The notes under the pieces are model-generated. The model worked only from the letters and a program-made list of their open reading frames with translations, was not told the DNA's origin and searched no databases. DNA of 37,844 bases from Deltaproteobacteria bacterium (GTDB taxonomy: Bacteria > Desulfobacterota > Dissulfuribacteria > Dissulfuribacterales > QOAL01): the NCBI GenBank assembly GCA_015489365.1, contig WFZW01000070.1:1-37844 (forward strand), written 5' to 3'. Shown here one piece after another: positions 1,065 to 31,603 of the stretch (the stretch's first letter is position 1; every line of letters begins with the position of its first letter). Both the position numbers and the translations under genes were made by a program.

Positions 1065-1102
1065 AGGGTACCCGCGACAGGATTACGTTCCCCTTGCGGG
1101 TC

Positions 1103-1187
1103 TAAACTTCCATGCGGCCCGCACCTTGGTGCCGCACCCCCAATACATGAAGATACAGCCCATAGACTCTGTATCTTCACGGTAAAC
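1103..1187 (-). repeat. Family 1 two-hairpin intergenic element, copy 1
   Basis: aaacttccatgcggcccgcaccttggtgccgcacccccaatacatgaagatacagcccatagactctgtatcttcacggtaaa. Perfect inverted repeat TGAAGATACAG/CTGTATCTTCA (1148-1158/1169-1179) and TGCGGC/GCCGCA (1113-1118/1131-1136). Near-identical to 3103-3186. Confidence 0.9.
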
Positions 1188-1243
1188 CATAAATGATCCT
1201 ACGGCATACCGGCGCATCCCTTGGTAAACTGAAAAGGGTGCTA

Positions 1244-1331
1244 ATTATCGTGAAAATACATCCTGAGCTAGGGCTGCATTTTTTTCATGTCTAGGGGCGC
1301 AGCTTGGGGGCGTATGAGCTGCATGAAAATT
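1244..1331 (+). repeat. Family 1 element, tandem copy A
   Basis: TCGTGAAAATACATCCTGAGCTAGGGCTGCATTTTTTTCATGTCTAGGGGCGCAGC...GCTGCATGAAAATTTA aligns with the reverse complement of copy 1; retains GCAGC/GCTGC pairing. Confidence 0.75.
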
Positions 1332-1413
1332 TACTGTAAAAATACATACCGGGTTAAGGACGGCTTTTCATGTTCGGGAATGCGGCGCCAAGGTACGGGC
1401 TGCAGAAAATTTG
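1330..1413 (+). repeat. Family 1 element, tandem copy B
   Basis: TTTACTGTAAAAATACATACCGGGTTAAGGACGGCTTTTCATGTTCGGGAATGCGGCGCCAAGGTACGGGCTGCAGAAAATTTG; starts 86 bp after copy A, head to tail, ends at the argS leader. Confidence 0.8.
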
Positions 1414-1428
1414 GGAGAAGTGATAACT

Positions 1429-3090
1429 ATGCGCAATAGGATAAAGACAGCTGTAGAGACGGCATTCAAACAGATAGCTGGTGAGCAAGCACAGCAAAAA
1501 TTACCTTTCGATAGGCATCAAGTTTCTGTCCCTAAGCAGGAGAGCCATGGGGACTACGCCAGCAATATAGCCCTGGTGATGGCCTCCATTATCAAGGTCT
1601 CACCCAGAGATCTTGCCAGCAAACTGGCAGATCGATTGGCTGAGCAACCTCATTTTGAGAAGATAGAGGTGGCAGGACCGGGTTTTTTGAACTTTTTCAT
1701 AGCCAAAAACTGGTGGCAGGAAAATCTCTATGACATGAAAAGGGCAGGGGCTGCCTATGGTGAATCCGATACCGGTCAGGGGAAACGTGTTCTTGTGGAA
1801 TTCGTCAGTGCCAATCCTACTGGGCCTCTGCACGTTGGACATGGACGTGGGGCAGCCGTGGGGGATTCGCTGGCAAGGGTCTTGAAGGCTGCCGGTTACA
1901 GACCTGAAACTGAATATTATATCAACGATGTTGGAAACCAGATGAAGACCCTGGGACGATCCGTGTATCTCAGGTACATTGAATTTTTTGGACGTAAAAT
2001 TGATTTCCCCAAGGAATGTTATCAAGGCGATTACATAAAGAACATTGCGACGGGCATAGCCTCCAGAGAAGGAAAAAGGTATATTGATAAACTACCCGAG
2101 GAGTGTATTCCCTATTTCACCAAGGTGGCGGTAGAAGAGATCTCTGCCGGAATACGCAGGGATCTGGAGGACTTTGGGGTAAGGTTTGACCGTTGGTTCA
2201 GTGAAAGAACCCTTCATGAGACCGGACTGGTTGAAAAAACCATTGCTGAGCTACAACGAAAGGGATTGATCTACGAAAAGGACGAGGCCCTTTGGTTTCG
2301 ATCCACTGACTTTGGAGATGAAAAGGATAGAGTTGTTAAACGCTCAAGTGGTGTCTTGACCTATTTTGCAGCCGATATCGCATACCACCGTAATAAGCTT
2401 GAAAGGAATTTCGATCTGTTGGTGGATATATGGGGAGCAGACCACCATGGATATGTACCAAGGGTAAAGGCAGCCATCGAGGCGCTGGGATATAGTGCAG
2501 AAAAACTCGAGGTTTTGCTCATACAACTAGTCAATCTCCTTGAAGGTGGTAAGATCAAGGCAATGTCCACCAGGGCGGGTGAGTTCGTGACGTTGAGAGA
2601 AGTCCTGGATGATGTGGGAAGAGATGCCGCGAGGTTCATATTTTTGACACGTAAATGCGATAGCCCCCTGGACTTCGATCTTGATCTGGCCAGGACCCAG
2701 ACCCAGGAAAATCCTGTATATTACGTTCAATATGCCCATGCAAGGCTTGCCAGTGTCTTCAGGAAGGCCAGGGAACAAGGGATTGCCATTGCTTCACCTG
2801 AGAAGGTAAATGTGGCCCTTTTGAACAAAGCAGAGGAAATAAGGCTTTTAAAGACGCTCGAGGCCTTTCCCAGGATAGTCTCTGATAGTGCCAAGACCCT
2901 TGAACCACATCGGATCAGCTATTATCTCACAGAATTGGCAGCCCAATTGCATAGCTATTATACCCGTCACAGGTTTATCAGTGAAGATGAGGCATTAACC
3001 CAGGCACGCTTGCTTCTGGCGGATGTTACCAAACAGGTATTCAACAAGGGACTGGGCTTATTAGGGGTCTCGGCGCCTGAAAGGATGTAG
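1429..3090 (+). CDS. argS: Arginyl-tRNA synthetase
   Basis: VEFVSANPTGPLHVGHGRGAAVGDSLARVL class I signature, KAMSTRAG motif, C-terminal DALR-type anticodon domain. The ORF track starts at TTG 1411; ATG 1429 preceded by GGGAGAAG is the more likely start. Confidence 0.97.
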   Translation: MRNRIKTAVETAFKQIAGEQAQQKLPFDRHQVSVPKQESHGDYASNIALVMASIIKVSPRDLASKLADRLAEQPHFEKIEVAGPGFLNFFIAKNWWQENLYDMKRAGAAYGESDTGQGKRVLVEFVSANPTGPLHVGHGRGAAVGDSLARVLKAAGYRPETEYYINDVGNQMKTLGRSVYLRYIEFFGRKIDFPKECYQGDYIKNIATGIASREGKRYIDKLPEECIPYFTKVAVEEISAGIRRDLEDFGVRFDRWFSERTLHETGLVEKTIAELQRKGLIYEKDEALWFRSTDFGDEKDRVVKRSSGVLTYFAADIAYHRNKLERNFDLLVDIWGADHHGYVPRVKAAIEALGYSAEKLEVLLIQLVNLLEGGKIKAMSTRAGEFVTLREVLDDVGRDAARFIFLTRKCDSPLDFDLDLARTQTQENPVYYVQYAHARLASVFRKAREQGIAIASPEKVNVALLNKAEEIRLLKTLEAFPRIVSDSAKTLEPHRISYYLTELAAQLHSYYTRHRFISEDEALTQARLLLADVTKQVFNKGLGLLGVSAPERM

Positions 3091-3102
3091 TATACTTTTA
3101 CT

Positions 3103-3187
3103 AAACTTCCATGTGGCCCGTACCTTGGTGCCCACCCCCCAATACATGAAGATACCGCCCATAGACTCTGTATCTTCACGGTAAATT
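3103..3187 (-). repeat. Family 1 element, copy 2
   Basis: aaacttccatgtggcccgtaccttggtgcccaccccccaatacatgaagataccgcccatagactctgtatcttcacggtaaa; begins 12 bp after the argS stop codon. Confidence 0.9.
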
Positions 3188-3258
3188 AATTGTCAGATAG
3201 TAGAGTTTAGTGCCCTGTAATCCTGCTAAAGATAAATAGCAAATCCTGAGGGGAAGCC

Positions 3259-3993
3259 ATGGCCCGTTCTATCAGGGAAAAGAAGAAGAAAAAGGCTATA
3301 CAGTTTCAATTGGGCTGGTCGGGCCTGATTGCACTTATTATAGCCACTGTTGCTGCCCTTTTATGGACATTCGTATTGGGTTTCTGGATAGGTCAGAAAC
3401 TTGTGGGCCAATCAGGTCCTACAAATATGGTGGCTGGAAACCTTACCAACAAAAATGCTGCTAATGGCGCCCTGCCAGGAACAGGCAGTAATGAATTGGC
3501 AACGCCCTTATCCAAGACTGTCACCCCCCCTTCCGGTGAATTGGCAACAGCCACTTCAGGTAAAAAGGATAGGGAAGGGTCACTAGAGACCGAAACCCTG
3601 GGCAATGTCGATATGGTCAACGCAAAGAAGGCAGCCCCCCCTATCAACAAATCAGGGGCACCAATCGAAAGGGCCCTCCCAGCTAGCTCCAACCAATCTA
3701 CCAGGGCCATGGAATCCAAGGGCAGCAAGAAGACCGTAGCTCCCAGAGAGAAAGGGGGCCACTTTGTACTTCAAATTGCCTCTTATAGGTCCAAGGAACG
3801 TGCCGAACGTGAAGCGCAAAGATGGAGGAAAAAAGGCTATAGGACAACCGTTAAAAAGGCCAACCTCGGTACCAAGGGTATCTGGTACAGGATTTATCTG
3901 GGACAATTCAAAACGGTTTCCGATGCGACGAATTTTGCAAGACAATTTGCGAAAAAAGAAGGGCTCCGCTCCTACGTGGTACCTGTCAAGTAA
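3259..3993 (+). CDS. SPOR domain-containing membrane protein
   Basis: N-terminal TM helix, low-complexity linker, C-terminal FVLQIASYRSKERAEREAQRWRKKGYRTTVKKA...WYRIYLGQFKTVSDATNFARQF SPOR motif. RBS-like GAGGGGAAG before ATG. Confidence 0.88.
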   Translation: MARSIREKKKKKAIQFQLGWSGLIALIIATVAALLWTFVLGFWIGQKLVGQSGPTNMVAGNLTNKNAANGALPGTGSNELATPLSKTVTPPSGELATATSGKKDREGSLETETLGNVDMVNAKKAAPPINKSGAPIERALPASSNQSTRAMESKGSKKTVAPREKGGHFVLQIASYRSKERAEREAQRWRKKGYRTTVKKANLGTKGIWYRIYLGQFKTVSDATNFARQFAKKEGLRSYVVPVK

Positions 3994-3999
3994 TAAATC

Positions 4000-4455
4000 A
4001 TGATCCGCAAGGCCAAGATAGGTGATGTCAAACATATCCATGCCCTATTGGCCCATTTCGCTGAAAAAAATCTATTGCTATCCAGATCACTTAGCGAGCT
4101 TTACGAGCATTTGAGGGATTACAAGGTATACGAAAAACCAGGCACTAATGAAGTTGCCGGAGTAGTTGCATTGAGCATCTCTTGGGAAAACCTTGCCGAA
4201 ATCAGGTCACTGGCCGTATTAGAGGATCAACAATTCAAGGGAATCGGAAGGCGGCTTGTGGAGCATTGCCTCTCAGAGGCAATAATGCTTGATATATACC
4301 GGGTCTTTTCATTGACATATCAGCCAGGATTCTTTGAAAAATTGGGCTTCAAGGTAGTGGATAAAAATGTGCTTCCCCACAAGATATGGGCAGATTGCGT
4401 AAAATGCCCCAAGTTCCCAGACTGTGACGAAACTGCTGTATTAATAGAATTATAG
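4000..4455 (+). CDS. GNAT N-acetyltransferase, short ArgA-like (putative N-acetylglutamate synthase)
   Basis: IRKAKIGDVKHIHALLAHFAEKNLLLSRSLSELYEHLRDY, EIRSLAVLEDQQFKGIGRRLVEHCL, GFFEKLGFKVVDKNVLPHKIWADCVKCPKFPDCDE; arginine genes argS and argJ are close by. Confidence 0.8.
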   Translation: MIRKAKIGDVKHIHALLAHFAEKNLLLSRSLSELYEHLRDYKVYEKPGTNEVAGVVALSISWENLAEIRSLAVLEDQQFKGIGRRLVEHCLSEAIMLDIYRVFSLTYQPGFFEKLGFKVVDKNVLPHKIWADCVKCPKFPDCDETAVLIEL

Positions 4456-4633
4456 CTTCTGCCTGTCTAGAAACTGGAACTTCGTTCAAGGCCAAGGCAT
4501 CTTTTACCGCAGACTATAGCTGATATTTCTATTTTAAGGATAATTTATATAGCGCCAAGACCGTGCAAAAAGACCATTTATGAACAGACACTAGCTTATT
4601 ATCATAAAATGATTAATCTTATCATTGAACCTA

Positions 4634-4673
4634 GATGCAGCCCAAAGAATAGGGGCTGCATGAAGGTTTGGAT
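4634..4673 (+). repeat. Family 1 element, partial copy C (tail hairpin)
   Basis: TGCAGCCCaaagaatagGGGCTGCATGAAGGTTTGGATT; perfect 8 bp stem TGCAGCCC/GGGCTGCA (4636-4643/4653-4660), followed by head-like TAAAATATATCC. Confidence 0.6.
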
Positions 4674-5059
4674 TAAAATATATCCTCCCCTCCAAGGCGC
4701 TGTACCACAGGTCAAAACCAGGGATGCGCAAAACGGGGATGCATGTCATATGAGAGTTTACCATTGAGACACGACACCCTTTTGAGCCGTATCTTCATAC
4801 CTGAATGCATCCATTATAAAGGTACACTCAGGCATGATGCCTTCAAGGCGTCCCATCCCCACTGCAATCTTCATCCTGGATTGCGCCTGGTGCCAGTTAC
4901 CTTCACACGCTGGTGCTGGAACCTTACCCGTGCAACTATATCTCATCGGACTACAATGAGGATTTAGGCCCTGGGAAACAGGGGAGAGATGATCACACAT
5001 TGGCTCCAGTCATGGGTCCTTGGTAGGACACCACGACAGGGCGAGATTTGGAAATATAA

Positions 5060-7597
5060 ATGATAGGCAATCTTTTAACAAAGGTATTTGGAACCAAACA
5101 CGACAGAGAACTCAAGAGATTGGCACCGATTGTCAGCCAAATTAACGGGTTAGAACCCGAGATCAGAGGGTTATCCGATGCGGCGCTCAAGGCCAAGACC
5201 CCAGCCTTCAAGGAACGGCTGGCAAAGGGCCAGCCACTTGATGAATTGCTTCCTGAGGCCTTTGCGGTGGTGAGGGAGGCCTCCCGCAGGGTACTTGGCA
5301 TGAGACACTATGATGTGCAATTGATCGGTGGGCTCGTGCTGCATCAGGGGAAAATCGCTGAAATGAAGACCGGGGAAGGTAAGACCCTGGTTGCAACCCT
5401 TCCGGTTTACCTCAATGCACTTACCGGCAGAGGCGTTCATGTGGTGACGGTCAATGATTATCTTGCAACACGTGATGCCGAATGGATGGGGCAGGTCTAC
5501 AGATTCTTAGGCCTAAGTATCGGTGTCATAGTAAACGACCTCGATGAAGATGACCGGAAAAAGGCATACGATTCAGATATAACCTATGGCACTAACAATG
5601 AATTTGGTTTCGACTTCCTCCGTGACAACATGAAATATTCCCTGGAGGACATGGTCCAACGGGAATTCCACTATGCAATCGTGGATGAGGTAGATAGCAT
5701 CCTCATCGATGAGGCCCGCACACCGCTCATTATCTCTGGCCCTTCTGATCAGGCCACAGACCTCTACCTGCGCGCCAACCAGGTCATTCCATACCTGAAA
5801 AAGGATACCGATTATACGGTAGACGAAAAGGCCAGAAACGCCACCTTTACAGAGGCGGGCATTGCCAAGTGCGAAAAACTGCTCGGCATCAACAATCTAT
5901 ATGATCCTGCCCAGACGGAATTGCTACACCATGTCCAGCAGGCCTTGAAGGCCCACGTCCTGTTCAAAAGGGACGTGGATTATATTGTAAAGAATGGTCA
6001 GGTAATCATAGTGGATGAATTTACCGGGAGGCTGATGCCTGGCAGGCGTTACAGTGATGGCCTACACCAGGCCCTTGAGGCCAAGGAAGGGGTTAAGGTA
6101 GAAAGTGAAAACCAGACCCTTGCATCTATAACCTTTCAAAATTTCTTCCGGATGTACGAAAAGCTCGCTGGCATGACCGGTACCGCAGATACCGAGGCGG
6201 CTGAATTCAAGAAAATCTATGACCTGGATGTGGTGGTGATCCCAACCCATAAGCCAATGATCCGTAAAGACCATCCCGATGTGGTTTTTAGGACCAAAAG
6301 GGAAAAATTCGAGGCAGCGGCCAAGGAAATCAAGAGACTTCACGAAAAGGGCCAGCCTGTACTGGTAGGAACCACCAGCGTAGAAAACTCCGAACAGCTT
6401 TCATCCATGTTGAAGCGTATGGGAATCCCCCACGAGGTTCTCAATGCGAAACATCATGAGAGGGAGGCCGAGATCGTTGCCCATGCAGGGGAACGTGGAA
6501 GGGTGACAATCGCCACTAACATGGCTGGCCGTGGTACGGACATCGTATTGGGTGAAGGCGTAGCAGAGGTCGGGGGTCTCCATATCCTTGGGACGGAAAG
6601 GCATGAATCCCGGCGTATAGATAATCAGTTACGAGGACGTTCAGGCAGGCAAGGTGACCCAGGCTCATCAAGGTTTTACCTGTCTCTAGAGGACGATCTC
6701 CTGCGTATCTTTGGATCTGACAAGATATCCGGGATCATGAACAAACTGGGCATGGAAGAAGGCGAACCCATAGAGCATTCCATGCTTTCAAAGGCCATTG
6801 AAAACGCCCAACGCAAGGTCGAGGCACACAACTTCGAGATCAGGAAGCACCTCCTTGAATATGATGATGTAATGAATAAACAGCGGGAGGTCATATACTC
6901 TCAACGAAAACAGATCATGGCCGGTGAGGATTTGAGGTCGGATCTGCTAGGATTCATCGACGAAATTGCTGAAAAGCTCGCAGACACCTATGCAGACGAA
7001 AAGAAGCCCCCGGATGAGTGGGATTGGAAAGCGCTCAAGGAACGCCTTAAGGGTCAGTTTGGCGTACACCTTTTTATCCCATCCGAAAAGAGGTCAGAGT
7101 TGACTCCAGAGGAACTCAAGCAGGAAATCTCTAGTGCTGTAAAGAAGGCTTACGAGGAACAAGTAGAGCTTTTTGGGTCTGAAGATATGGCCCAAGTAGA
7201 ACGCTTTATAATGCTCCAGAGCCTGGATTCCCTTTGGAAGGATCACCTTCTAAACATGGACCACCTACGGGAAGGGATTGGCCTTAGGGGCTATGGACAA
7301 AAAGATCCCCTGCAGGAATATAAACGCGAAGGCTATGATATGTTCATGGCCATGATTCAGCGTTTCAGGGAGGAGACCCTCAGCATCCTGCTACGCATCC
7401 GTCCCATGCGCCAGAGTGAGGTTGAGGAACTTGAGATCAGGAAAAAACGACGCCAGGAACAACAGATGCAACTGAGCCACGGTGATGGGGAAACGAAAAA
7501 GCGGCCGGTAAAGCGTAAGGCAAGAAAGATCGGAAGAAATGAGCCATGTCCCTGTGGTAGCGGCAAGAAATATAAGAGATGCTGCGGAAAAAAATAA
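5060..7597 (+). CDS. secA: Preprotein translocase subunit SecA
   Basis: [53 protein letters not shown], and C-terminal zinc motif [17 protein letters not shown]. Confidence 0.98.
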
Positions 7598-7644
7598 ATC
7601 CAGTCGTAGTAAAGACGCAAAAGCCTGCACATATCGGGGAGGAG

Positions 7645-8850
7645 ATGGATTTGCTGAGCATTAAGGGATTTTCAGGAAACGCGGTAGCTGCTGCCATCAA
7701 GTATCAGGACCGCCTTGATCTCGGCCTCTTGTTTTCAGAAAGACCGGCCACGGTAGCTGCCACATTTACCAGGAACAAGGTCAAGGCAGCCCCTGTTCTG
7801 GATGCAATAGGGCTTCTGGGCTCAGGTATCAGGCAGATCCGGGCCATATTGGTAAACAGCGGCAATGCCAATGCCTGTACGGGAGGCCGCGGCCTTGAGG
7901 ATGTTAGGAGACTTCGCCGTTGGAGTGCAGATACCCTGAATATAAGTAAGACCGATATATTGGTCTCCTCCACTGGTGTAATAGGGGAATTGCTGCCGCT
8001 GGATCGGATAGGGGCCGCAATCCCTGGATTGGTTGCAGGGCTTTCCACCGATGGCATTGAGCGGGTCGCAGAGGCCATCTTAACCACTGACACGGTGAAG
8101 AAAACCGCGTTCCGGCAAATAGACCTGGATGGAGTACGTTCGGGGATCTACGGCATGGCAAAGGGCTCAGGGATGATAGGACCCAATATGGGACCTCCCC
8201 AGGCGACCATGCTTGCATTTATCCTGACCGATCTCAAGGTGTCCCCCGATTGGTGGCAAAGGGCGCTTGAGAAGGCGGTGAAGGTAAGCTTTAACAGGAT
8301 CGTTGTAGATGGTGACACTAGCACCAACGATACGGTGCTTGCCATGGCAAATGGCATGGCAGGCAATGATCCAATAGGTGAAGCGAACCTTGGCCATGAG
8401 ATAGAAAAAATACTCTCTGAACTTACGATGGATCTTGCCAGGCAGATTGTACGTGATGGAGAAGGGGCCACCAAGTGCATAGAGCTAAACGTTACTGGTG
8501 CACGCTCAGATACCGATGCAGAGCGGGTTGCCAGGATAATATGCGAATCTCCACTGGTAAAAACCGCCTTTTTTGGAGAAGACCCCAATTGGGGTAGGAT
8601 ATTGGCTGCTGCTGGCAGGGCTGGAATCGAGCTCGATCCCGAAAGGCTCACCCTCAAAATAGGTGACGTGGAACTCGTCAAAAACGGCCAAGGCACTGGA
8701 ACGAAGGCAGAACACCTGGCAAAAAAGATCATGAAGGCACGCGACTTTGACCTGACACTGGACATGGGACTGGGAGATGGCTGCATCCGCTTTTTGACCT
8801 GCGACCTTTCTGTCGAATATGTGCGCATCAATGCAGATTACCGGACATGA
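7645..8850 (+). CDS. argJ: Bifunctional glutamate N-acetyltransferase/amino-acid acetyltransferase ArgJ
   Basis: NSGNANACTGG, STGVIGE, MAKGSGMIGPNMGPPQATMLAFILTDL, GEDPNWGRILAAAGRAG. ORF begins 7579; start is likely ATG 7645 or TTG 7651 next to GGGGAGGAG. Confidence 0.95.
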   Translation: MDLLSIKGFSGNAVAAAIKYQDRLDLGLLFSERPATVAATFTRNKVKAAPVLDAIGLLGSGIRQIRAILVNSGNANACTGGRGLEDVRRLRRWSADTLNISKTDILVSSTGVIGELLPLDRIGAAIPGLVAGLSTDGIERVAEAILTTDTVKKTAFRQIDLDGVRSGIYGMAKGSGMIGPNMGPPQATMLAFILTDLKVSPDWWQRALEKAVKVSFNRIVVDGDTSTNDTVLAMANGMAGNDPIGEANLGHEIEKILSELTMDLARQIVRDGEGATKCIELNVTGARSDTDAERVARIICESPLVKTAFFGEDPNWGRILAAAGRAGIELDPERLTLKIGDVELVKNGQGTGTKAEHLAKKIMKARDFDLTLDMGLGDGCIRFLTCDLSVEYVRINADYRT

Positions 8851-8959
8851 TCCCAAAACCTTTGTGCGGGCCTGCCTTCCCTCCCTCATACAGCATGGAA
8901 GAATGACAAGTCCGGCATGTCCAGCATTGCAATATGCCCCTCAAAAACACATAATCTGA

Positions 8960-10006
8960 TCAGAGAGAGAATGCCCCATGACCAAACAGTCGTCGGTGTA
9001 TCCATAGATCAGCAATCAGGTAACCCATACTCAAGGTGCCTGATGTCCATAGAAATATCCACACCACATGCTGCACCTCATACCCCAAGAGCAGCCCTGC
9101 AAACAAGACAGTCAATGCCAGTGGAGTAATCAGATATTCCTTGAACCTTGCCAACTCGACCTTTTTTTCATGTGCTGCCCACATATCGATTCCCTGTGAT
9201 GCGAATTCCATGGCCACTATCAATGTGACCAACGAGGAGTAGATCCCTGATACCCATGGAAGCAAGGCAACAGATGTCAAGGGTAGGGCAATCGAAAGCA
9301 GGAGGCTCAGGATCGCAGGCAGGCCCAATTTTAAACAGGCAGGGAATCCCACCAGAAAATATTGGCTGCCAGATGCCAGGGTGATAATCAGTATCACGAC
9401 CCCGTAGATCAGCTCTATCTGCCTTGCCGGAAAGGAAAGTGCCACGGCCAGCCCGAATATCTCAAAGGCCAGGGCCACCTTGACCCTTGAGGTAATCCTA
9501 TCCTCCTTGAGCAACAGTGTAATGGCAAGGGCAACGGTGGCAATCAGTACGCCGGTCAGAAACGCTATAGTTATAGCCTTATCTGGAAACGTGGCGGTCA
9601 GCAGGATGAGCCCTATACCCGTCATCTGGAGAGTGGTTTTGATCTTGGCAAGCTCAGTCACCTTGAGTTGTACAGTGGAACCTGCCAAAAACCGCCTGAG
9701 TTCCGTTACCAGAAATTCCCTCAGAAAGATCGGCCATGCTATCCAGACAGGCAGGATGGAAAGGTCAACCAGTGGGATAAACGTCACTGCTACGAAGATC
9801 TTATCGGCAATCGGGTCCAATAGCCTTCCAAGGGGGGTGCTTCCCTCCCTCCTGGCCATAAGCCCATCAAGATAATCAGTAAGGCCAAGAAACAGTAATA
9901 TGATCAACGCGGCAAGCCTGGAATTGGTCTTGCCATAGATAAGGAAATAAGGCAACGGAAGAAACAGGATCCTTACCGCAGTAACGTGGTTGGCCTTTAT
10001 CTTCAT
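8960..10006 (-). CDS. pgsA: CDP-alcohol phosphatidyltransferase (PgsA-like) with extended C-terminal membrane region
   Basis: DYLDGLMARREGSTPLGRLLDPIADK matches the CDP-OH-P motif; remaining ~170 aa is strongly hydrophobic. Start at MKIKANHVTAVRIL (10006). Confidence 0.85.
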   Translation of the reverse strand: MKIKANHVTAVRILFLPLPYFLIYGKTNSRLAALIILLFLGLTDYLDGLMARREGSTPLGRLLDPIADKIFVAVTFIPLVDLSILPVWIAWPIFLREFLVTELRRFLAGSTVQLKVTELAKIKTTLQMTGIGLILLTATFPDKAITIAFLTGVLIATVALAITLLLKEDRITSRVKVALAFEIFGLAVALSFPARQIELIYGVVILIITLASGSQYFLVGFPACLKLGLPAILSLLLSIALPLTSVALLPWVSGIYSSLVTLIVAMEFASQGIDMWAAHEKKVELARFKEYLITPLALTVLFAGLLLGYEVQHVVWIFLWTSGTLSMGYLIADLWIHRRLFGHGAFSL

Positions 10007-10557
10007 GGTCCAGAGCGCTCCCCCCTGGAGGTCCACAATTGGTAGAGCAGGCGCATGAGGTTTCCCCGCGCTGCCCCCAATTCCTGTACATCGGCGATAA
10101 AGTTGCGGTAGTGCCTGGCTGGACCGATCTCTATTTGCAAAAGCAGTGGCTCACAAAAATACCATGTGCAACGATAGGGTCTCTGGGGCCTTGGCAGGAT
10201 GCATCCAGAGGGCCCTATAAATTGGCAAATATCCGATTCATCCACATCCAAGTCGTATGATGGCACTTCCAGACCCATGGCCAGAAATCCTGCCACGTCG
10301 GCAAATTCTGGAAATCCGTGTTTGTTTGCACAGCAGACAGTTCCACAATAGGGGCAGACCTTGGCGGTATATTTTTGGATAAAAGGATCCAGTTTATCGA
10401 ATGCCCTGCGGAAAAGTATGGCCTTTTCCCTTACTTCGCGCAGGTGCCCCGCTTTCTTTTCAAAGAATCTCCTGATTTCTTCAATGGTTGAATAGAAGGC
10501 ATCAGGGTCCTTATAATCAAGTTTGGGGAAAACAGTGGTATCGAAACCAACGATCAT
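10003..10557 (-). CDS. Cysteine-rich conserved hypothetical protein (YkgJ-like candidate)
   Basis: CPYCGTVCCANKHGFPEFAD...CQFIGPSGCILPRPQRPYRCTWYFCEP; overlaps the pgsA start, consistent with an operon. Confidence 0.65.
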   Translation of the reverse strand: MIVGFDTTVFPKLDYKDPDAFYSTIEEIRRFFEKKAGHLREVREKAILFRRAFDKLDPFIQKYTAKVCPYCGTVCCANKHGFPEFADVAGFLAMGLEVPSYDLDVDESDICQFIGPSGCILPRPQRPYRCTWYFCEPLLLQIEIGPARHYRNFIADVQELGAARGNLMRLLYQLWTSRGERSGP

Positions 10558-10582
10558 AGGTTACATTCCTGGCGCAATTCTT

Positions 10583-15453: not shown

Positions 15454-15479
15454 ATCCATATCTGAATATCCCTGCCCTG

Positions 15480-19051: not shown

Positions 19052-19083
19052 AGTAGACCTGTCCGCTAGAAAGCTGTCGTACT

Positions 19084-19962: not shown

Positions 19963-19963
19963 A

Positions 19964-21283: not shown

Positions 21284-21394
21284 GGTATTACCTTTTAAAG
21301 AGGGATTTCTAGGGATTTTACAAAATCCTCTGAAAAATCATATTATTATAATAAAGATGAGTTAATGTCCCTACCTTGGTACTTGGGGTGTATA

Positions 21395-21485
21395 AATTAC
21401 TGCGAAAATATATCTCTGGTAAGGGCCTTATTTTTCACACCCAGGGACACGGTGCCAAGGAGATGGGATGCATGAAAGTTTGGAT
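21395..21485 (+). repeat. Family 1 element, copy D (degenerate)
   Basis: AATTACTGCGAAAATATATCTCTGGTAAGGGCCTTATTTTTCACACCCAGGGACACGGTGCCAAGGAGATGGGATGCATGAAAGTTTGGAT; abuts the hom stop codon at 21486. Confidence 0.7.
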
Positions 21486-22805: not shown

Positions 22806-22888
22806 ATTCTTGAACTCCTGTCTCGCATGCTCGCTAAGGCCATCTCAATCTTCATCTTATCCTGTTTCATATCTAGAAGCCTTCATCC

Positions 22889-22969
22889 CAAACCTTCTCA
22901 GCACCCTCGGTTGCACCCCCTAAAGCATAAAGATACAGCCCATAGCCAGGATGGATTTTCACAGTAACT
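22889..22969 (-). repeat. Family 1 element, copy E (degenerate)
   Basis: Reverse complement GTTACTGTGAAAATCCATCCTGGCTATGGGCTGTATCTTTATGCTTTAGGGGGTGCAACC...GAAGGTTTGG aligns with the family. Confidence 0.7.
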
Positions 22970-22983
22970 GCCATTCCCATGAG

Positions 22984-23088
22984 GGGGCACAACGAAGTAT
23001 GAAAATAGGCCATTGTAAACATTTTGTCTTTTGTACATGGACGTCCTTGTGTGTCCATGACTAATCAAAAATGTATTTTCGGATAAGC
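22984..23088 (-). repeat. Family 2 element, copy 1 (~105 bp)
   Basis: Reverse complement CTTATCCGAAAATACATTTTTGATTAGTCATGGACACACAAGGACGTCCATGTACAAAAGACAAAATGTTTACAATGGCCTATTTTCATACTTCGTTGTG aligns with 28955-29060. Confidence 0.8.
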
Positions 23089-23196
23089 TTTCATGCAGCC
23101 ATCCATTCCAGCTCCTTGGAACATGCCTCAATCTTCCAGAGAGAGGGCACCATAGTATTTAATAACCTATGCAGGCGACAAGGTTAGGCTTATTTC

Positions 23197-23282
23197 CCAA
23201 ACCTTCATGCAGCCCGAAGCCTTGGAGCTGCACCCCAATACATGAAGAACAGCCCATAGACTCTGCATTTTCACGGTAAATA
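23197..23282 (-). repeat. Family 1 element, copy 3
   Basis: ccaaaccttcatgcagcccgaagccttggagctgcaccccaatacatgaagaacagcccatagactctgcattttcacggtaaat; retains TGCAGC/GCTGCA pairing. Confidence 0.88.
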
Positions 23283-23543
23283 TATGGACAACATTACAGA
23301 TCATGTCCACTACCTGAGTAAAAATTTTAATTTAAACATTTAAATTCTAAACGGCAAGACAAGGCCTGCTCAACTAGGATCACCCGCTTGTAATCACAGG
23401 GCTATCTAGCAACAAGAACGAATGAAAATCAAGTTTTCCAGCCTTTTCCCGATAATCAGAATGTGGCCAGTGGCATTCCATGGCTTGGACAAATCCCAAC
23501 CTGACCCAAGGGCACTGCCCGCGTTAAAGGATAGTGTTGGCAC

Positions 23544-24530
23544 ATGAACCTAATAAACAGGATTGGACAAGGTATTGGGCCAGGCAAGATGGCCCTTTTT
23601 GCCGCCATTGCTTGGCTGGTTACCATAACACTCCTACACGCATGGATAAGCGAACCTGGTGCCAAGAAGAGAAGATTACAGGTGGGTTTCTTACCCATAA
23701 CTTGTCATCTTACATGTGCAGTGGCATTTGACAGGTTATCCAAGACAGGGAAGGCATTTGATGCCCATAAATTTTCTGCCTGGCCCGACATGATAGAGGC
23801 ACTCAAGGGTGGGGATCTTGACGTGGCATTTATATTGGCCCCTATCGCCATGGCCATGGAAGATCAAGGCTTTCCAGGCAAAATCGTGTTGTTAGCCCAT
23901 CGAAACGGTACTGCATTGGTAGTGTCCAAGCATAGTGGCATTCGATCCATTACCGGGCTAAAGGGGGCCACTGTTGCCATACCCATAAGATACAGTTGCC
24001 AGATGCTCGCCCTGCGACGTCTTTGCAGACAACATGGCTTTTCCATAAGGGAGCTGAACATGGTCGAATTATCCCCGCCTGATATGCCCTTTGCCCTGGC
24101 TTCGGGGACAATAGACGCATATATAGTGGGGGAGCCCTACGCAGCCAAGGCAGAGCTTGAGGGCACGGGCAGGGTATTGTGCCAGATGAGGGATGCATGG
24201 CCAGGTTTTATCTCAAGCGTGGTCTTTGTAACCAAACATGCACTCAAGGACAGACGCCAAGAGGTCTCAAGGCTTATAAGGGCATTTTATCAGGCTGGCA
24301 AATGGATCGAAGGTCATCGTCTAGAGGCAGCCCGCATAGCTGCCCCTTTTCTAGGCCTTCCAGAGCCACTCATACGATACGTCCTACTTTCCTCAAGGGA
24401 CAGGGTCTCTTACTCAAACCTGATCCCGATGCCAAAAGAGCTTTCTGATCTTTCCGAAGAGATGGTAAAGGCCGGCCTTATAAAGAGGCCAATGGTTGGA
24501 AAGGAAATCATAGATCTTTCATGGCGCTAA
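23544..24530 (+). CDS. ABC transporter substrate-binding protein, nitrate/sulfonate/bicarbonate (NrtA/SsuA-like) family
   Basis: N-terminal hydrophobic anchor; VGFLPITCHLTCAVAFDRL, GDLDVAFILAPIAMAM, LKGATVAIPIRYSCQMLALRRL, GTIDAYIVGEPYAAKAE; followed by permease and ATPase genes. Confidence 0.85.
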   Translation: MNLINRIGQGIGPGKMALFAAIAWLVTITLLHAWISEPGAKKRRLQVGFLPITCHLTCAVAFDRLSKTGKAFDAHKFSAWPDMIEALKGGDLDVAFILAPIAMAMEDQGFPGKIVLLAHRNGTALVVSKHSGIRSITGLKGATVAIPIRYSCQMLALRRLCRQHGFSIRELNMVELSPPDMPFALASGTIDAYIVGEPYAAKAELEGTGRVLCQMRDAWPGFISSVVFVTKHALKDRRQEVSRLIRAFYQAGKWIEGHRLEAARIAAPFLGLPEPLIRYVLLSSRDRVSYSNLIPMPKELSDLSEEMVKAGLIKRPMVGKEIIDLSWR

Positions 24531-25279
24531 AAGGGCTTCATCCATTTATATCCTTCGGTCTGGCCATACTTGTCTGGGAGGCCGCCATAAGATGCCTGGC
24601 CATCCCTGCCTACAAGTTTCCAGGCCCGCTTGCCGTTGCAGAGGCGATGAAAGAGCTCGCCCTGTCGGGTCGACTTCTTGCCAGTGTCGTTGCCAGTCTG
24701 TTCAGGGTAACATGGGGTTTTTATCTGGCGGCCTGCGCTGCAATTCCCTTGGGACTAGTGCTGGGAATATACGGCTCTGCCAGGGCATTCCTGAACCCGA
24801 TCGTACAGTTTCTCCGACCCATATCACCGCTGGCCTGGATACCTGTGGCACTCATGTGGCTGGGGATCGGTGACAGGTCGGCCATATTCCTGATCTTTCT
24901 TTCCTCCTTCTTCCCTCTTCTGGTCTTCACTATGAGCGCCGTCCTGGGTATCAAGGTGACCTATATCAGGGTGGGATTGAACTTCGGGGTTACAGGACTC
25001 AAACGCTATACAAAAATCCTGCTTCCAGCCATAATGCCCGATATAATTACCGGACTTAGGATTACACTGGGTACCGCATGGTTGGTGATTGTAGCGGCGG
25101 AGATGATAGCCGTGAAATCAGGCCTCGGTTATCTCATCATTGATGGACGAAATTCTATGCGCATGGACTATGTTGTGGCTGCCATGATTGTAATTGGTAT
25201 AATTGGGCTCGTATTGGATTGGACAGTCAGTCGACTGGAAATGCTTCCTTCTGTAAGATGGATACATAAAAGACGATGA
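24521..25279 (+). CDS. ABC transporter permease (SsuC/NrtB-like)
   Basis: AVAEAMKELALSGRLLASVVASLFRVTWGFYLAACAAIPLGLVLG, PISPLAWIPVALMWLGIGDRSAIFLIF; overlaps neighbouring genes. Confidence 0.92.
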   Translation: MALKGLHPFISFGLAILVWEAAIRCLAIPAYKFPGPLAVAEAMKELALSGRLLASVVASLFRVTWGFYLAACAAIPLGLVLGIYGSARAFLNPIVQFLRPISPLAWIPVALMWLGIGDRSAIFLIFLSSFFPLLVFTMSAVLGIKVTYIRVGLNFGVTGLKRYTKILLPAIMPDIITGLRITLGTAWLVIVAAEMIAVKSGLGYLIIDGRNSMRMDYVVAAMIVIGIIGLVLDWTVSRLEMLPSVRWIHKRR

Positions 25280-26064
25280 AAAAGATCGAGGTCAAGGGGC
25301 TATCTAAATCTTACAATGAAAGGAGGAAAAAAAGGCGTTCCCCAGGGGATTGCAGGTACGGACATGGATGCCTGGTACTCAAGGACCTAGATTTCCAGAT
25401 CGAAGAGGGCAGTTTTACCTGTTTCATAGGCCCTTCCGGTTGTGGAAAGTCTACTCTCTTTAGGATAATGGCAGGATTTGAGACACCAACCACCGGGGAG
25501 GTATTGATAGATGGAATTCCGGTCTTAGGTCCCAGCACGAGGCACATATTCGTCTTTCAGGAAGATGGTCTATTCCCCTGGTTGACGGCCATGGAAAATG
25601 TTGCCATAGGTGCCAAGCATATTTCAGATCCGCTGGAGAGAGAGGGAGAAATCCGGGATTTCCTAGACATGGTAGGGCTCAAGGGTTTTGAGGATCATTA
25701 CCCACACGAACTCTCAGGTGGGATGAGACGAAGGGCCGAGGTGGCCAGGGCGCTCATAGCCAATCCAGAAATACTACTCATGGATGAACCCTTTGGAGCG
25801 CTGGATTTCATCACCAGGCTCCAGATGCGTGAAGAGATGGTAAACGTTCATCAGATGTTCGATTCCACGATCCTGTTCATAACACATGACATAGACGAGG
25901 CCCTTCAACTCGGGGATCGAATCATTATGCTTTCTGGCCGACCCTCATCGATAAAGGCAGACATATCCCTGCCATTTCCACATCCCAGGGACCTTACCGT
26001 CGGAGAGATAGCGAGCTTGCGAAAAGAGATCTATTTCCACATAGGTATACATGCTGCCTTGTAG
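25276..26064 (+). CDS. ABC transporter ATP-binding protein (SsuB/NrtD-like)
   Basis: IGPSGCGKSTLFRIMAGFETPTTGEV Walker A, LSGGMRRRAEVARALIANPEILLMDEPFGALD signature and Walker B. Confidence 0.95.
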   Translation: MKKIEVKGLSKSYNERRKKRRSPGDCRYGHGCLVLKDLDFQIEEGSFTCFIGPSGCGKSTLFRIMAGFETPTTGEVLIDGIPVLGPSTRHIFVFQEDGLFPWLTAMENVAIGAKHISDPLEREGEIRDFLDMVGLKGFEDHYPHELSGGMRRRAEVARALIANPEILLMDEPFGALDFITRLQMREEMVNVHQMFDSTILFITHDIDEALQLGDRIIMLSGRPSSIKADISLPFPHPRDLTVGEIASLRKEIYFHIGIHAAL

Positions 26065-26137
26065 CAAACTATTGGCCTACATACACCTGCTGTGCCATAC
26101 TTGCTGACAAGACCAGTCCGGGTTACCTTGCTGCCCC

Positions 26138-28732
26138 ATGGATTTTTTGAAATATTTGCCGCTTGTCAATCGCCCTAGCCGCTATCTAGGGACCGAAATA
26201 AATGCTCGCAGAAAGGCATGGGGGGACAGCCACCTAAGGGCTGCACTAGTGTTCCCTGATCTTTATGAGATAGGCATGTCCCACCTTGGCCTTCATATCC
26301 TGTATCATATACTCAATGACCTGCCATGGGCACTTGCTGACAGAGTATATTGCCCCGATACGGACATGGAAAGATTGCTGAGATCGAAGGGTATATCCTT
26401 GTGGGGCCTTGAAAGCAGACGGCCTCTAAAGGATTTCGATCTTCTTGCAATCACCCTGCCCTATGAACTTTGTTATTCTAACATCTTGACGATACTGGAT
26501 GTGGCAGGCATACCTGTCTGGGCATCCGAACGCCTTGAAGGTGATTGGCCCATTGTCCTTGGAGGTGGAAGTTGCTCGGTAAATCCGGAGCCGGTAGCGG
26601 ATTTCTTCGATGCCATACTCATCGGGGATGGGGAGGAGGCCATCTGTGAGATTGCCAAAACCATAATGGATTGGCGGAGGGCCAAGGGATCGAAAGACGA
26701 GTTGCTAGGGTCTCTGGCAGGTATCAAGGGCCTATATGTGCCCTCATTTTACAAACCCATATATACGCCCTCTGGTCTCTTCAAGGCCATAGAGGTCACA
26801 CCCCATGCCCCTCCTGTAATCAATAGAAGGATACTTTCCGACCTTGCAAGTGTTACCTTCCCCACAAAGCCGCTGGTACCTTTCATGCAGATCGTCCATG
26901 ACAGACTTGGAGTAGAAATCGCCAGGGGGTGTACCAGAGGATGCAGGTTTTGCCAGGCAAGTTCCATCTATCGACCGGTCAGGGAACGCCCATTGGATCA
27001 AATCCTTAACATAATCGATAGGGGCATCCTTGCCTCTGGATGGGAGGAGCTTTCACTTTTATCCTTGAGCACAGGGGATTACTCCTGCCTTGGTACATTG
27101 GTTCCAGAACTCATGGATCGCTATCTTGAGAGAAATATTTCCCTATCCCTTCCCTCATTGAGAGTGGGCACCTTGACCCCACAAATAATGGAACAGATAA
27201 AGAAGGTCCGAAAAACCGGTTTCACCCTTGCCCCCGAGGCAGGCAGTGAACGCCTGAGAAGAGTGATAAACAAGGGTATTACAGAAGCGGCGCTTCTAGA
27301 GACCGCAAAAGAGGCCTTCTCTCATGGTTGGAATCATATCAAGCTCTATTTCATGATAGGCCTTCCCACTGAAACAGATGATGACATACAGGAGATTGCC
27401 CACTTGGCAAGAAAGGTCCTTGCAACATCGAAAGGAAAAGGGCGCAGCAGAAGGGGAAGTCATCAAGTGATAGTGAGCGTGGGCACCTTTGTACCCAAAC
27501 CCCACACCCCCTTTCAATGGGAGGGGCAGATCAACCCTGAGGAATCGTGGAGGCGCATAGACCTCATCAAATCCGGGCTCAATAGCAAGAGGTTCCGGGT
27601 AAAGTGGCATGATCCTAGGCAAAGTTACATGGAAGGGATCTTCTCAAGAGGAGACAGGAGACTGTCCAGGGTCATATTTAGTGCCTGGAAAAGGGGGGCC
27701 AGGCTGGATGCCTGGAGCGATATGTTGAAACCTAATCTTTATACGGAAGCCATGCGCGAAATCGGGCTCCTGCCCCCATCCTTTTTAAACGAAAGGGCAC
27801 TGGACGCCCCGCTTCCCTGGGGACATATATCGGTTGGTATCAAGCAGGAATATCTTTTGGACGAACGGGAAAAGGCCTTAAAGGCGATCTATACCCCAGA
27901 CTGCCGTTTTGGCAAATGCCATGGATGCGGAGTATGTGATTTCAAACAGATCCAACCCAGGCTATCCAAACCATGTAGTGAACCCTTGGGGGACAAGAGG
28001 GTGAGATCACAGGCCGGACATCCATCGAAGGCTAGCCAATTCTTTTATTCATTTGCCTATTCTAAGCTGGGAGCAGCACGCCTTCTCGGTCATCTGGAAT
28101 TAGTACATGCCTTTCACAGGGCAGCCCGCAGGGCCTGTCTTCCCATAGCCTATTCCGCTGGTTTTAATCCCAGGCCTAGATTCTCCTTTGATCAACCGGT
28201 GCCCCTGGGGCTTGAAAGTATCATGGAGAAGGCAGGGCTCGTTCTTACGGATAACCTGTCCACTGACCATATTCTTACCGCACTAAACGTACATCTACCC
28301 GATGGTATCACCATAAGACAGATCAAGCATCTTCCAGGCAAACCAAGATTTAAGATCCAGAAGGCCTCGACCTACCTAGCCCTTTTGGAAGGTCGATGGC
28401 TTGGACCGGTCATCAATTCATTGAAACACCTGGAAGGTACCTCCCCCATGCCTATTTCCTTTCCTAAAGGGGACCGAACCTGTAGAGTAGACTTGCAAAA
28501 GGCCATCGACATGGTCCAGGTCTTCGAATCCGTGGAACAAGGCCCTGAGGATACGCTTTCATTGTGGCTGAATACAGACGAACTTGCATCCATCAGCAAG
28601 GGTTCTTGCTTTATACTCTTGTTTCGATGCATCAACAAGGTGATCTCAGGCCTCAAGCCATGGGATATTCTAGGATTTCTTGCCGGTCTAGAGCAACCTC
28701 AGTTGAAAATGATCCGGATACTGAAGCTTTAG
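26138..28732 (+). CDS. Fused radical SAM protein (TIGR03960-like) with C-terminal DUF2344 (TIGR03936-like) domain
   Basis: GVEIARGCTRGCRFCQASSIYRPVRERPLDQI radical SAM cluster; C-terminal YSKLGAARLLGHLELVHAFHRAARRACLPIAYSAGFNPRPRFSFDQPVPLGLES. Confidence 0.92.
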   Translation: MDFLKYLPLVNRPSRYLGTEINARRKAWGDSHLRAALVFPDLYEIGMSHLGLHILYHILNDLPWALADRVYCPDTDMERLLRSKGISLWGLESRRPLKDFDLLAITLPYELCYSNILTILDVAGIPVWASERLEGDWPIVLGGGSCSVNPEPVADFFDAILIGDGEEAICEIAKTIMDWRRAKGSKDELLGSLAGIKGLYVPSFYKPIYTPSGLFKAIEVTPHAPPVINRRILSDLASVTFPTKPLVPFMQIVHDRLGVEIARGCTRGCRFCQASSIYRPVRERPLDQILNIIDRGILASGWEELSLLSLSTGDYSCLGTLVPELMDRYLERNISLSLPSLRVGTLTPQIMEQIKKVRKTGFTLAPEAGSERLRRVINKGITEAALLETAKEAFSHGWNHIKLYFMIGLPTETDDDIQEIAHLARKVLATSKGKGRSRRGSHQVIVSVGTFVPKPHTPFQWEGQINPEESWRRIDLIKSGLNSKRFRVKWHDPRQSYMEGIFSRGDRRLSRVIFSAWKRGARLDAWSDMLKPNLYTEAMREIGLLPPSFLNERALDAPLPWGHISVGIKQEYLLDEREKALKAIYTPDCRFGKCHGCGVCDFKQIQPRLSKPCSEPLGDKRVRSQAGHPSKASQFFYSFAYSKLGAARLLGHLELVHAFHRAARRACLPIAYSAGFNPRPRFSFDQPVPLGLESIMEKAGLVLTDNLSTDHILTALNVHLPDGITIRQIKHLPGKPRFKIQKASTYLALLEGRWLGPVINSLKHLEGTSPMPISFPKGDRTCRVDLQKAIDMVQVFESVEQGPEDTLSLWLNTDELASISKGSCFILLFRCINKVISGLKPWDILGFLAGLEQPQLKMIRILKL

Positions 28733-28954
28733 GGGGATATCCTCTTAAAGTGGAAGCTCCCTACAGGGAAGAGCCTCTCCCCACCGGTTGTGGTCCTTGA
28801 ACCCTTTCATGTATAATTTCAAATTATACATCTTTCAAATCTGCCGAAGATACAAGGCGAAGGGGATGCAAACGTGGGTACTTAAAACTCCTGGCAAAAT
28901 AGTAGGCCTGGTAGGCTTAAAACCCCCCTCTATGCCTTCAGATACCGAACAACC

Positions 28955-29060
28955 TTTACCCGAAAATGCATTTTTTGATTGGCCATGGACACACAATGGC
29001 ATACATGGACAAAAGGCAAAATGTTCCCAGGGTGCATTTTCATACTTCATGTGTCCGTCC
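28955..29060 (+). repeat. Family 2 element, copy 2 (~105 bp)
   Basis: TTTACCCGAAAATGCATTTTTTGATTGGCCATGGACACACAATGGCATACATGGACAAAAGGCAAAATGTTCCCAGGGTGCATTTTCATACTTCATGTGTCC matches the reverse complement of 22984-23088. Confidence 0.8.
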
Positions 29061-29136
29061 ATATTAAATGGATGTGGCAATTCCTCCTGCATGGTTTTCC
29101 AGGTTCTTTGTAGGCAGGAATAATTGAGGAAAGACC

Positions 29137-31473
29137 ATGAAACAGCAGTTACTAAGGGATGTTGGTACATCCAACCCGATTACCGTATCACCAGATGCAT
29201 ACCTTTCAGATGCAGCACAGATCATGACCTCCAAGAAAATCAGCAGCCTGATCGTTGTAGAGGACGATCGACCCAAGGGGATAATAACAGAAAGGGATAT
29301 TGCAATGGCAGCACACAGATTCAAGGAGATAGGACAGGTAGTTGTCACGCAGATAATGTCTGAGTCCTTGATTACTGCCCCTGATGATATGGATATATTC
29401 GAGGCCTACAATCTTATCAGGGCCCACAACATAAGGCATCTAGTGATTGTCAACCGTGAACAACGCCCTGTTGCTGTGGTTTCACAATCGGACATCATGA
29501 AGGGATTGGGCCTTGGAAGCTTCCTTGAAATGCAACATCTAGACAGGATAATGACAAGGGTTGTCCTTACTATTGCACCTGATTCAACCGTTTTCGATGC
29601 GGTCAATCAGATGGACAGGCATGAGGTCAGTTGTACGGTCATAGAAAAGGGAGGATATCCTGTAGGTATCCTGACGGAAAGGGACATAGTGGATCTATGG
29701 CAAAAGGGAATAGATTTCAGGAAGACCCATGTGAAGGAAGTGATGAGTGCACCTGTCTTCTTGATCTCTGAGCAATCTACCACCTACAAGGCGGCAAATC
29801 TCATGCAAAGACACCACATCAGGCGCCTCGTAGTGGTAGATGGCCGAGGCAAACTGGTGGGGCTTGTTACCCAATCTGATATTTTTGAGGCACTCGAAAA
29901 AAGATATGTCAATTTCTTGCAAAACATCATATATGAACAAAATAAAAGGCTTAATGAAACACAAAATAGCCTCCTTGAAAAATCCATCTATCTGGACAAC
30001 ATCCTGAGATGGTCCACCGACATGGCTATCATGGCAACAGACCTCGACTATAGGATCATATTTTACAATCCTGCCTGTGAAGGTATCTTTGGTTATAAGG
30101 CAGAGAAGGTAATTGGCAGGTCAGCCGTGGATCTTCACGTAAAAAAACATGCCGATATCAGGGGATTCTTTTCTGCCATCGAAACGGTCAAAAAAGGGGG
30201 AGAGTTTCAGCGTCAGTTGGAGTTGGAACTAAATGGAAGACGGATCTTCCTCGAGGCAAAGATATCAGGAATCGTTGACAAGGAAGGCAAACTCATGGGC
30301 TATGTGATGATGGCAAGGGATGTGACATCCCAAAAGAGGATGGAAGAAGATCTCCTCAAGGCACACAAGCTGGAATCAATAGCCCTATTTGCAGGTGGAA
30401 TAGCCCATGATTTTAATAACTTATTAACTGCCGTCCTTGGCAATGTCTCCCTTGCGAAAATTATGGCCGAAGATCAAGAAGACCTGTGCAAGCGTTTGAG
30501 CGAGGCAGAAAAGGCGCTTTTGAAGGCAAAGGATCTTACCCAGAAGCTACTTACATTTGCCTCTGGAGGGGCCCCTGTCAAAAAGGTTGTTTCCCTGGTA
30601 GAGACCCTCAGGGAAACGGCGGATTTCATCATGAGCGGCTCCAATATAAGATGCGAATATGTATTCGATGATGAGCTTATGGCGGTTGAGGTCGATCGGG
30701 GCCAAATAAATCAGGTTGTCACCAACCTTCTCATAAATGCGATGCAGGCGATGCCAGAGGGAGGAAAAATAATCATCAAGGCAACAAATACAACGATAAA
30801 ACCACAAGACAATATGTCGCTGCCAGCAGGGCGATATGTCAAGATCTCGATAACGGATCAGGGCATCGGTATCCCCCGCCAATATCTAAGCAAAATATTT
30901 GACCCCTACTTTACTACGAAACAAAAGGGCAGCGGCCTTGGTCTTGCCATTTGCCATTCGATCATCCATGGACATGGTGGTATGATCACAGTGGACTCCG
31001 AGATAGGGAAGGGCACGAGTTTCCATGTTTATCTGCCTGGTAGCGATAAAAAGGTCATTGCCAACAAGGATGCAGACGTGAATTTGAAAAAGCAAGGTGG
31101 AAGAGTACTTATCATGGACGATGAGGAAATCATTCTGGACGTGGCAGGAGAGATATTGAAGTTCTTAGGTTACGAACCTGCCGTGGCCAGAGACGGGGCG
31201 GAAGCCATAGAAATATACAAGGAGGCCATGGCAGCCGGCACACCCTTTGATGCCGTTATCTTTGATCTCACGGTCCCTGGTGGCATGGGTGGGGCTGCCA
31301 CATTAAAAAGGCTCCTGGAGCTGGATCCTAACGTGACTGCCATCGTATCGAGCGGATATTCCAATGACCCCGTGATGGCCAATTACAAGGATTATGGTTT
31401 TAAGGGCATAGTCAGTAAGCCCTATCAAATCGAGGAGCTTGGCCAGGTACTTGAAAAATGTCTATCCAAATGA
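29137..31473 (+). CDS. Soluble hybrid histidine kinase: 4 CBS domains, PAS, HisKA, HATPase, receiver
   Basis: Four CBS-like repeats (e.g. ITVSPDAYLSDAAQIM...GIITERDI), PAS ATDLDYRIIFYNPACEGIFGYKAEKVIGRS, FAGGIAHDFNNLLTAVLGN, DQGIGIPRQYLSKIFDPYFTTKQKGSGLGLAI, REC LIMDDEEIILDVAGEIL...DAVIFDLTVPGGMGG. No obvious TM segment. Confidence 0.93.
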   Translation: MKQQLLRDVGTSNPITVSPDAYLSDAAQIMTSKKISSLIVVEDDRPKGIITERDIAMAAHRFKEIGQVVVTQIMSESLITAPDDMDIFEAYNLIRAHNIRHLVIVNREQRPVAVVSQSDIMKGLGLGSFLEMQHLDRIMTRVVLTIAPDSTVFDAVNQMDRHEVSCTVIEKGGYPVGILTERDIVDLWQKGIDFRKTHVKEVMSAPVFLISEQSTTYKAANLMQRHHIRRLVVVDGRGKLVGLVTQSDIFEALEKRYVNFLQNIIYEQNKRLNETQNSLLEKSIYLDNILRWSTDMAIMATDLDYRIIFYNPACEGIFGYKAEKVIGRSAVDLHVKKHADIRGFFSAIETVKKGGEFQRQLELELNGRRIFLEAKISGIVDKEGKLMGYVMMARDVTSQKRMEEDLLKAHKLESIALFAGGIAHDFNNLLTAVLGNVSLAKIMAEDQEDLCKRLSEAEKALLKAKDLTQKLLTFASGGAPVKKVVSLVETLRETADFIMSGSNIRCEYVFDDELMAVEVDRGQINQVVTNLLINAMQAMPEGGKIIIKATNTTIKPQDNMSLPAGRYVKISITDQGIGIPRQYLSKIFDPYFTTKQKGSGLGLAICHSIIHGHGGMITVDSEIGKGTSFHVYLPGSDKKVIANKDADVNLKKQGGRVLIMDDEEIILDVAGEILKFLGYEPAVARDGAEAIEIYKEAMAAGTPFDAVIFDLTVPGGMGGAATLKRLLELDPNVTAIVSSGYSNDPVMANYKDYGFKGIVSKPYQIEELGQVLEKCLSK

Positions 31474-31566
31474 TGGCAGGATCTTTACACCCTGCCTATG
31501 GCAGCTTGGTCATCCCTTCATGGATCTTGTAAAAAACTTTATCCTCGAAATATCAGCCAGGTCTGC

Positions 31567-31603
31567 GGTGCGGCACCAAGGTACGGGCCGCATGGAAGTT
31601 AGA
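31567..31603 (+). repeat. Family 1 element, partial copy F (tail hairpin)
   Basis: GGTGCGGCACCAAGGTACGGGCCGCATGGAAGTTAGA; TGCGGC/GCCGCA (31569-31574/31587-31592). Confidence 0.75.

Follow-up and report, generated by a model that had tools for sequence, protein, structure and literature searches.

The PATEs of Haloquadratum walsbyi have palindromes near their ends, lack terminal repeats and a transposase, and produce no target duplication (PMC3119063). A REPIN is a pair of REPs of one kind in inverted orientation, located beside a RAYT (PMC3116915). TIRYTs, corresponding to TnpA-Y1 subclass 2.1, have GGGGWSAS termini (PMC3733652) and have been reported without REP-like partners (PMC6006769, PMC3733652). 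DDE-type bacterial MITEs such as ERIC, NEMIS and RUP carry terminal inverted repeats of 15–30 bp (PMC3733652). The dispersed repeat analysed here (family 1) works like a PATE or a REPIN and is a member of neither; it is closer to the PATEs than to REPs or MITEs. With it, an uncultured deltaproteobacterial lineage contributes an abundant family of miniature mobile elements intermediate between PATEs and REPINs.

The window, i.e., the whole stretch of 37,844 nt that was analysed, belongs to the host genome G000 (2.49 Mb, 239 contigs, rated 99% complete). Pairwise repeats within it already reveal the family, and the nine places listed in the preliminary description align. All nine proved real, matching a covariance model trained on G000 copies and on those of the sister genome G001 with E-values of 1e-20 to 3e-6, and a tenth copy was added. 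Most of the nine were part of the training alignment of this model, and the independent support for family 1 therefore comes from the genome-wide counts. The copies in the window are as follows.

681–768 (+): old, diverged copy, not on the first list (covariance model E 3.6e-7)
1102–1186 (-): young full-length copy, 97.6% to the consensus, 80-nt unit plus target TTTA (covariance model 1102–1184, E 1e-20)
1242–1331 (+): old copy in tandem with the next, the junction TTTA being common to both (covariance model 1246–1334, E 2e-14)
1328–1413 (+): old copy, second member of the tandem pair (covariance model 1335–1414, E 3e-10)
3101–3185 (-): young copy, 93%; orthologous G001 site without the copy (covariance model 3101–3183, E 9e-18)
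4600–4671 (+): old partial copy with a degraded left half and a clear right hairpin, the right-hairpin segment missing from G001 (covariance model E 3e-6)
21395–21482 (+): old copy in a region not alignable in G001 (covariance model 21398–21483, E 5e-13)
22887–22969 (-): old copy, an ancestral insertion with a diverged counterpart in G001 at L180:3931-4013 (covariance model 22888–22966, E 1e-13)
23197–23282 (-): rather young copy, 88%, beside a repeat of a second family, absent in G001 (covariance model 23197–23278, E 4e-18)
31567–31603 (+): right hairpin on its own, left side truncated, almost identical to the young type (covariance model 31540–31603, E 3e-6)

The diverged counterpart of the copy at 22887–22969 implies that some insertions predate the split between G000 and G001.

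The young consensus is CCGTGAAAATACAGAGTCTATGGGCTGTATCTTCATGTATTGGGGGTGCGGCACCAAGGTACGGGCCGCATGGAAGTTTA, preceded by TTTA and followed by G. The mobile unit measures 80 nt (CCGTG…GTTTA); the length of ca. 85 bp first given was too long because the leading TTTA is part of the target site, and the two hairpins of that description stand. Hairpin 1 is CCGTGAAAATACAG-loop-CTGTATcTTCATG; a short linker separates it from hairpin 2 (TGCGGC-loop-GCCGCA), which is followed by TGGAAGTTTA. When the consensus was folded as single-stranded DNA, two separate hairpins formed, the first beginning no more than 2 nt from the left end and the second leaving ca. 10 nt to the right end. In no genome compared do hairpins 1 and 2 have the same sequence, and the element is thus asymmetric. 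The unit has no coding capacity and contains no transposase.

In four genera of one family, compensatory changes have preserved both of the unlike hairpins. The named pairs yielded a covariation score of 0.212 in 41 copies compared with 0.168 after shuffling (reached in 0 of 500 shuffles), and a score of 0.275 against 0.203 in 16 sequences from six genomes (again 0 of 500), with some hairpin 2 stems misaligned in the latter. RNAalifold predicted no consensus structure for the 41 copies because old copies are decayed; covariation became visible when the pairs of a named structure were counted. Copies in G002, G004, G008 and G013 retain the terminal words TTTACCRTGAAAATACA and CATGAAAGTTTRG, but their hairpin 2 stem has been rewritten on both sides, e.g., to the wholly different GTTGCAC/GTGCAAC in G008 and TGCTGCC/GGCAGCA in G013. 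The conserved foot of the consensus is TTTACC; the GT[AG]G tetranucleotide foot of REPs is absent from the hairpins, and the two element ends share only 1–5 of 14 identities, i.e., there are no terminal inverted repeats. Accordingly, the label REP/MITE-like originally given to the family is apt for a miniature mobile element, but family 1 is neither a true REP nor a classical MITE.

Family 1 extends far beyond the window, as expected of the dispersed element that had been proposed. The left module, allowing up to three mismatches, occurs 122 times in the whole of G000 and not once as the backwards pattern, and a profile HMM found 232 matches in 1.02 Mb of sampled G000 contigs compared with none in the reversed sequence. 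A content-blind sample of 20 contigs contained 25 copies in 138 kb, which extrapolates to ca. 450 per genome, at least 122 of them near-identical. On average, G000 has a copy every 5 kb or so, generally in intergenic DNA. Five short G000 contigs (L261, L205, L215, L216 and L218) consist of N throughout. Among the 232 copies, 92 are full-length and at least 90% identical to the consensus. A single sequence type (≥ 90% identical) has expanded recently in G000, alongside a large decayed older population. In the sister genome G001, 55 matches were obtained from 363 kb, and the young type was not among them.

The intergenic position and the mixed orientation noted in the window are general features of the family. 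Outside proxy genes lay 83 of the 89 young copies, compared with 17% of random points (83% fell inside), and the orientation of young copies had no relation to these genes; the sampled copies were divided between strands as 122 plus and 110 minus. A weak bias towards the G-rich strand was detected in G000 (56:29, p 0.005) and not in the G001 sample (31:24). This bias could reflect a replication-linked single-strand mechanism, although it is confounded by coding bias.

Two stable hairpins with compensatory changes in intergenic positions would likewise be expected of a conserved regulatory RNA, i.e., a riboswitch, terminator or mRNA stabiliser under functional selection at each site. Such a regulator is very improbable, however, given that orientation is independent of genes, that Rfam at gathering scores gave no match within the window (in line with the earlier failure to recognise a known family) and that the copies are lineage-specific, nested and tandem, with the old ones decaying; the empty sites described below also disfavour it. 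Single family-1 copies could still be co-opted as regulators.

Young copies occupy the ends of contigs L204, L251, L266 and L267; the repeat therefore probably breaks the assembly, and both assembly and annotation would benefit from knowledge of family 1. The short contig L240 has the right half of the element at 40–76 and a left half at 616–662, in inside-out order and ca. 540 bp apart. A second dispersed repeat family (CTGGAAACATTTTGCCTTTTGTCCATGTATGTCCTTGTGTGTCCATGGCTAATCAAAAAATGCATTT) is present in the window at 23012–23078 (+) and 28964–29031 (-). It has 78 copies in 1.02 Mb of G000 and none in 363 kb of G001; for 35 of the 78, a family-1 copy is no more than 60 bp away.

Family 1 is mobile and has multiplied recently, and its insertions are precise, intergenic and TTTA-directed. 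The preference for a mobile element over a riboswitch in the preliminary description was borne out by empty orthologous sites and nesting as well as by the many intergenic copies. The window is collinear with contig C2 of G001, and several orthologous G001 regions were too diverged to define an empty site. The cleanest one corresponds to L259:6553, where removal of exactly 80 nt gives ACAGACCTCGATTTAGAAAGGAGGAGGCAATGG compared with ACAGA-CTCAATTTAGAAAGGAGGAGGCAATGG in G001; the junction after removal reads CTCGATTTAGAAAGGAGGAGGCAATGG and the G001 orthologue CTCAATTTAGAAAGGAGGAGGCAATGG, so that the empty site is exact to the base (CAATTTA↓GAAAGG, the arrow marking the point of insertion). Two more G001 sites, orthologous to window position 3101 and to L222:17005, are without the G000 copy. 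At L228:2244, a young copy lies precisely within an old antisense copy, and its flanks, once joined, align with many old copies straight through the insertion point (E 4e-18). Another young copy, L033:5465, splits a palindrome (GGGGACAGGCAAA...TTTGCCTGTCCCC) downstream of a TIRYT gene, and the flank of the G001 TIRYT gene reads CTTTTACATTATTCGCCTGTCCC at the equivalent place. Several copies are inserted in the ATTTT end of the second repeat family, and neighbouring copies and tandems have one TTTA in common, as insertion at the TTTA of an existing copy would give.

Insertion occurs directly 3′ of a pre-existing TTTA, with TTTA↓G preferred. The left TTTA was found in 72 of the 89 young copies, and the base following the right TTTA was G in 72% compared with 15% after TTTA genome-wide. 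These features bear on whether family 1 could be a classical MITE of the DDE type that duplicates a 4-bp TTTA target. Small, gene-less, intergenic and multi-copy, it resembles such MITEs in size and copy number, and TTTA stands on both sides in 58 of 89 copies, at which a 4-bp duplication is ambiguous. A search for target-site duplications with shifting boundaries recovered the shared TTTA and nothing else. However, the left and right 4-mers are unequal in 9 of the 27 youngest copies, and the changes are not even, falling mostly on left base 1 and also on right base 4. This points to a left TTTA derived from the target and a right TTTA borne by the element, rather than to a duplication. Considering also the absence of terminal inverted repeats and the conservation of two unlike hairpins, a DDE-type origin appears unlikely.

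Among relatives, family 1 is concentrated in the host genus. A model trained on g1 and applied to 46 genomes of the order was saturated in both members of the genus; it found five copies in G002 and one each in G004, G008 and G013. With a broader model applied to the family, the two congeneric genomes gave at least 150 and 143 copies (150 scored) and G002 gave 10; six genomes from genera g4 and g5 had one to three, and the nine from the fifth genus, g3, had none. No copy was found by exact pattern scans of genome_contigs and viral_contigs or by blastn against phage and plasmid records.

The lack of terminal inverted repeats, the hairpin ends and the precise TTTA↓G insertion together support a PATE-like reading: family 1 is probably a non-autonomous miniature IS200/IS605-like element moved in trans by an HUH/Y1-type single-strand route. 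In common with PATEs, it has palindromes near both ends, is too short for a transposase, inserts precisely and in a strain-specific manner (L259:6553, L228:2244), and consists of homogeneous young types among heterogeneous old copies, with elements nested in one another. The absence of target duplication is probably shared as well, judging from the pre-existing TTTA and the mismatched ends, whereas copies with TTTA on both sides are ambiguous. Insertion 3′ of a fixed short target and hairpin ends are also features of the IS200/IS605 type. Unlike PATEs, family 1 is bacterial, is 80 nt long with two unlike hairpins and a TTTA(G) target, and has no IS605-type parent with similar palindromes at the Y1 loci searched in the host family.

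The Y1 mechanism is suggested by the anatomy of the unit. A Y1/HUH tyrosine transposase acting in trans would recognise both hairpins on single-stranded DNA, cut after the flanking TTTA and after the terminal TTTA of the element itself, and re-insert the unit after another TTTA. A single-strand circle intermediate, if formed, would carry the junction of GGAAGTTTA and CCGTGAAAATAC. As drivers, we infer two candidates: the single TIRYT-type Y1 gene of G000 or an autonomous parent that the assembly does not contain.

The only Y1_Tnp gene (PF01797) in G000 encodes 310 aa at G000:C122:12287-13216 (L033:4288-5217), with the motifs NHFH and YIDLNP, the latter including the catalytic tyrosine. Its protein scored 61 bits against NCBIfam REP_Tyr_transpos, under the cut-off of 80, and phmmer against the PDB returned chance matches only. 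The sequence of the locus fits a TIRYT of TnpA-Y1 subclass 2.1 bounded by its own GGGGACAGG inverted ends, since these ends fit GGGGWSAS and the protein has YIDLNP and ca. 310 aa. The termini differ from those of family 1, and the class (TIRYT/TIRtron) is described without REP-like repeats (PMC3733652, PMC6006769). In G001, PF01797 likewise identified only TIRYT-type genes. The REP-associated tyrosine transposase with matching ends that had been anticipated, i.e., a RAYT/REPtron, thus appears to be absent, the sole IS200-like gene being a TIRYT with its own ends. An initial RAYT/REPtron reading of this locus was demoted, because the related genes are GGGGACAGG-bounded and without family-1 copies.

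A canonical REP/REPIN family with its RAYT would account for abundant, intergenic, hairpin-forming and doublet-like repeats, and the Y1 gene, with its sub-threshold REP_Tyr_transpos match, is flanked by family-1 copies 40 bp before and 250 bp after. Two adjoining copies can nevertheless be due to chance at the observed density, and the relatives of the gene in other genomes have inverted GGGGACAGGC termini and no family-1 copies nearby. Family 1 does share with REPINs and REP-BIMEs (PMC3116915, PMC8266576) hundreds of intergenic copies with single-strand hairpins, young two-hairpin units with solo halves as remnants and presumed Y1 action in trans. It differs in being asymmetric, its hairpins not being inverted copies of one REP, in lacking a GTAG/GTGG foot and in having no cognate RAYT with flanking repeats in relatives. 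Together with the fit of the Y1 protein to a class not associated with REPs, these differences make a canonical REP/REPIN family highly unlikely.

For the PATE-like element favoured here, two sources of the enzyme were weighed. We tentatively suggest, although this remains rather doubtful, that the resident TIRYT mobilises in trans a large population of asymmetric elements with two hairpins and with ends unlike those of the TIRYT. If true, TIRYT and family 1 would form a host-restricted REPIN-like alliance in which another class of enzyme is guided by TTTA in place of GTAG. The distribution of TIRYT within the host family matches that of the elements only in part: G003 and G007 have TIRYT without elements, and G004 and G013 have elements without TIRYT. 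A possible but not likely alternative is an autonomous IS200/IS605-type parent that was lost when a multi-copy IS collapsed in metagenome assembly, TIRYT being unrelated. In its favour, Haloquadratum PATEs arise from IS605-type elements by core deletion (PMC3119063), the contig ends already carry young copies, and the scan for a composite of left half, gene and right half, which gave no convincing candidate, covered 41% of G000. Against such a parent stand the completeness of the genome, the recovery by PF01797 of TIRYT alone in G000 and of TIRYT-type genes alone in G001, and the searches within the host family, in which no IS200-like locus bears ends like those of family 1 (R2-like ends). Because very recent copies, exact sites and a single candidate Y1 gene are available, the enzyme question for gene-less hairpin-ended repeats is directly testable in this system.

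Close relatives of the TIRYT occur in many Deltaproteobacteria, and one Candidatus Anammoxibacter genome contains more than 10 loci. Just upstream of the TIRYT gene in G000 (L033:4172-4245) lies a palindromic variant with the right end in both directions (AAACCAAACTTTCATGC, GCGTGAAAGTTTTGGTT) around a hairpin-2-like sequence.
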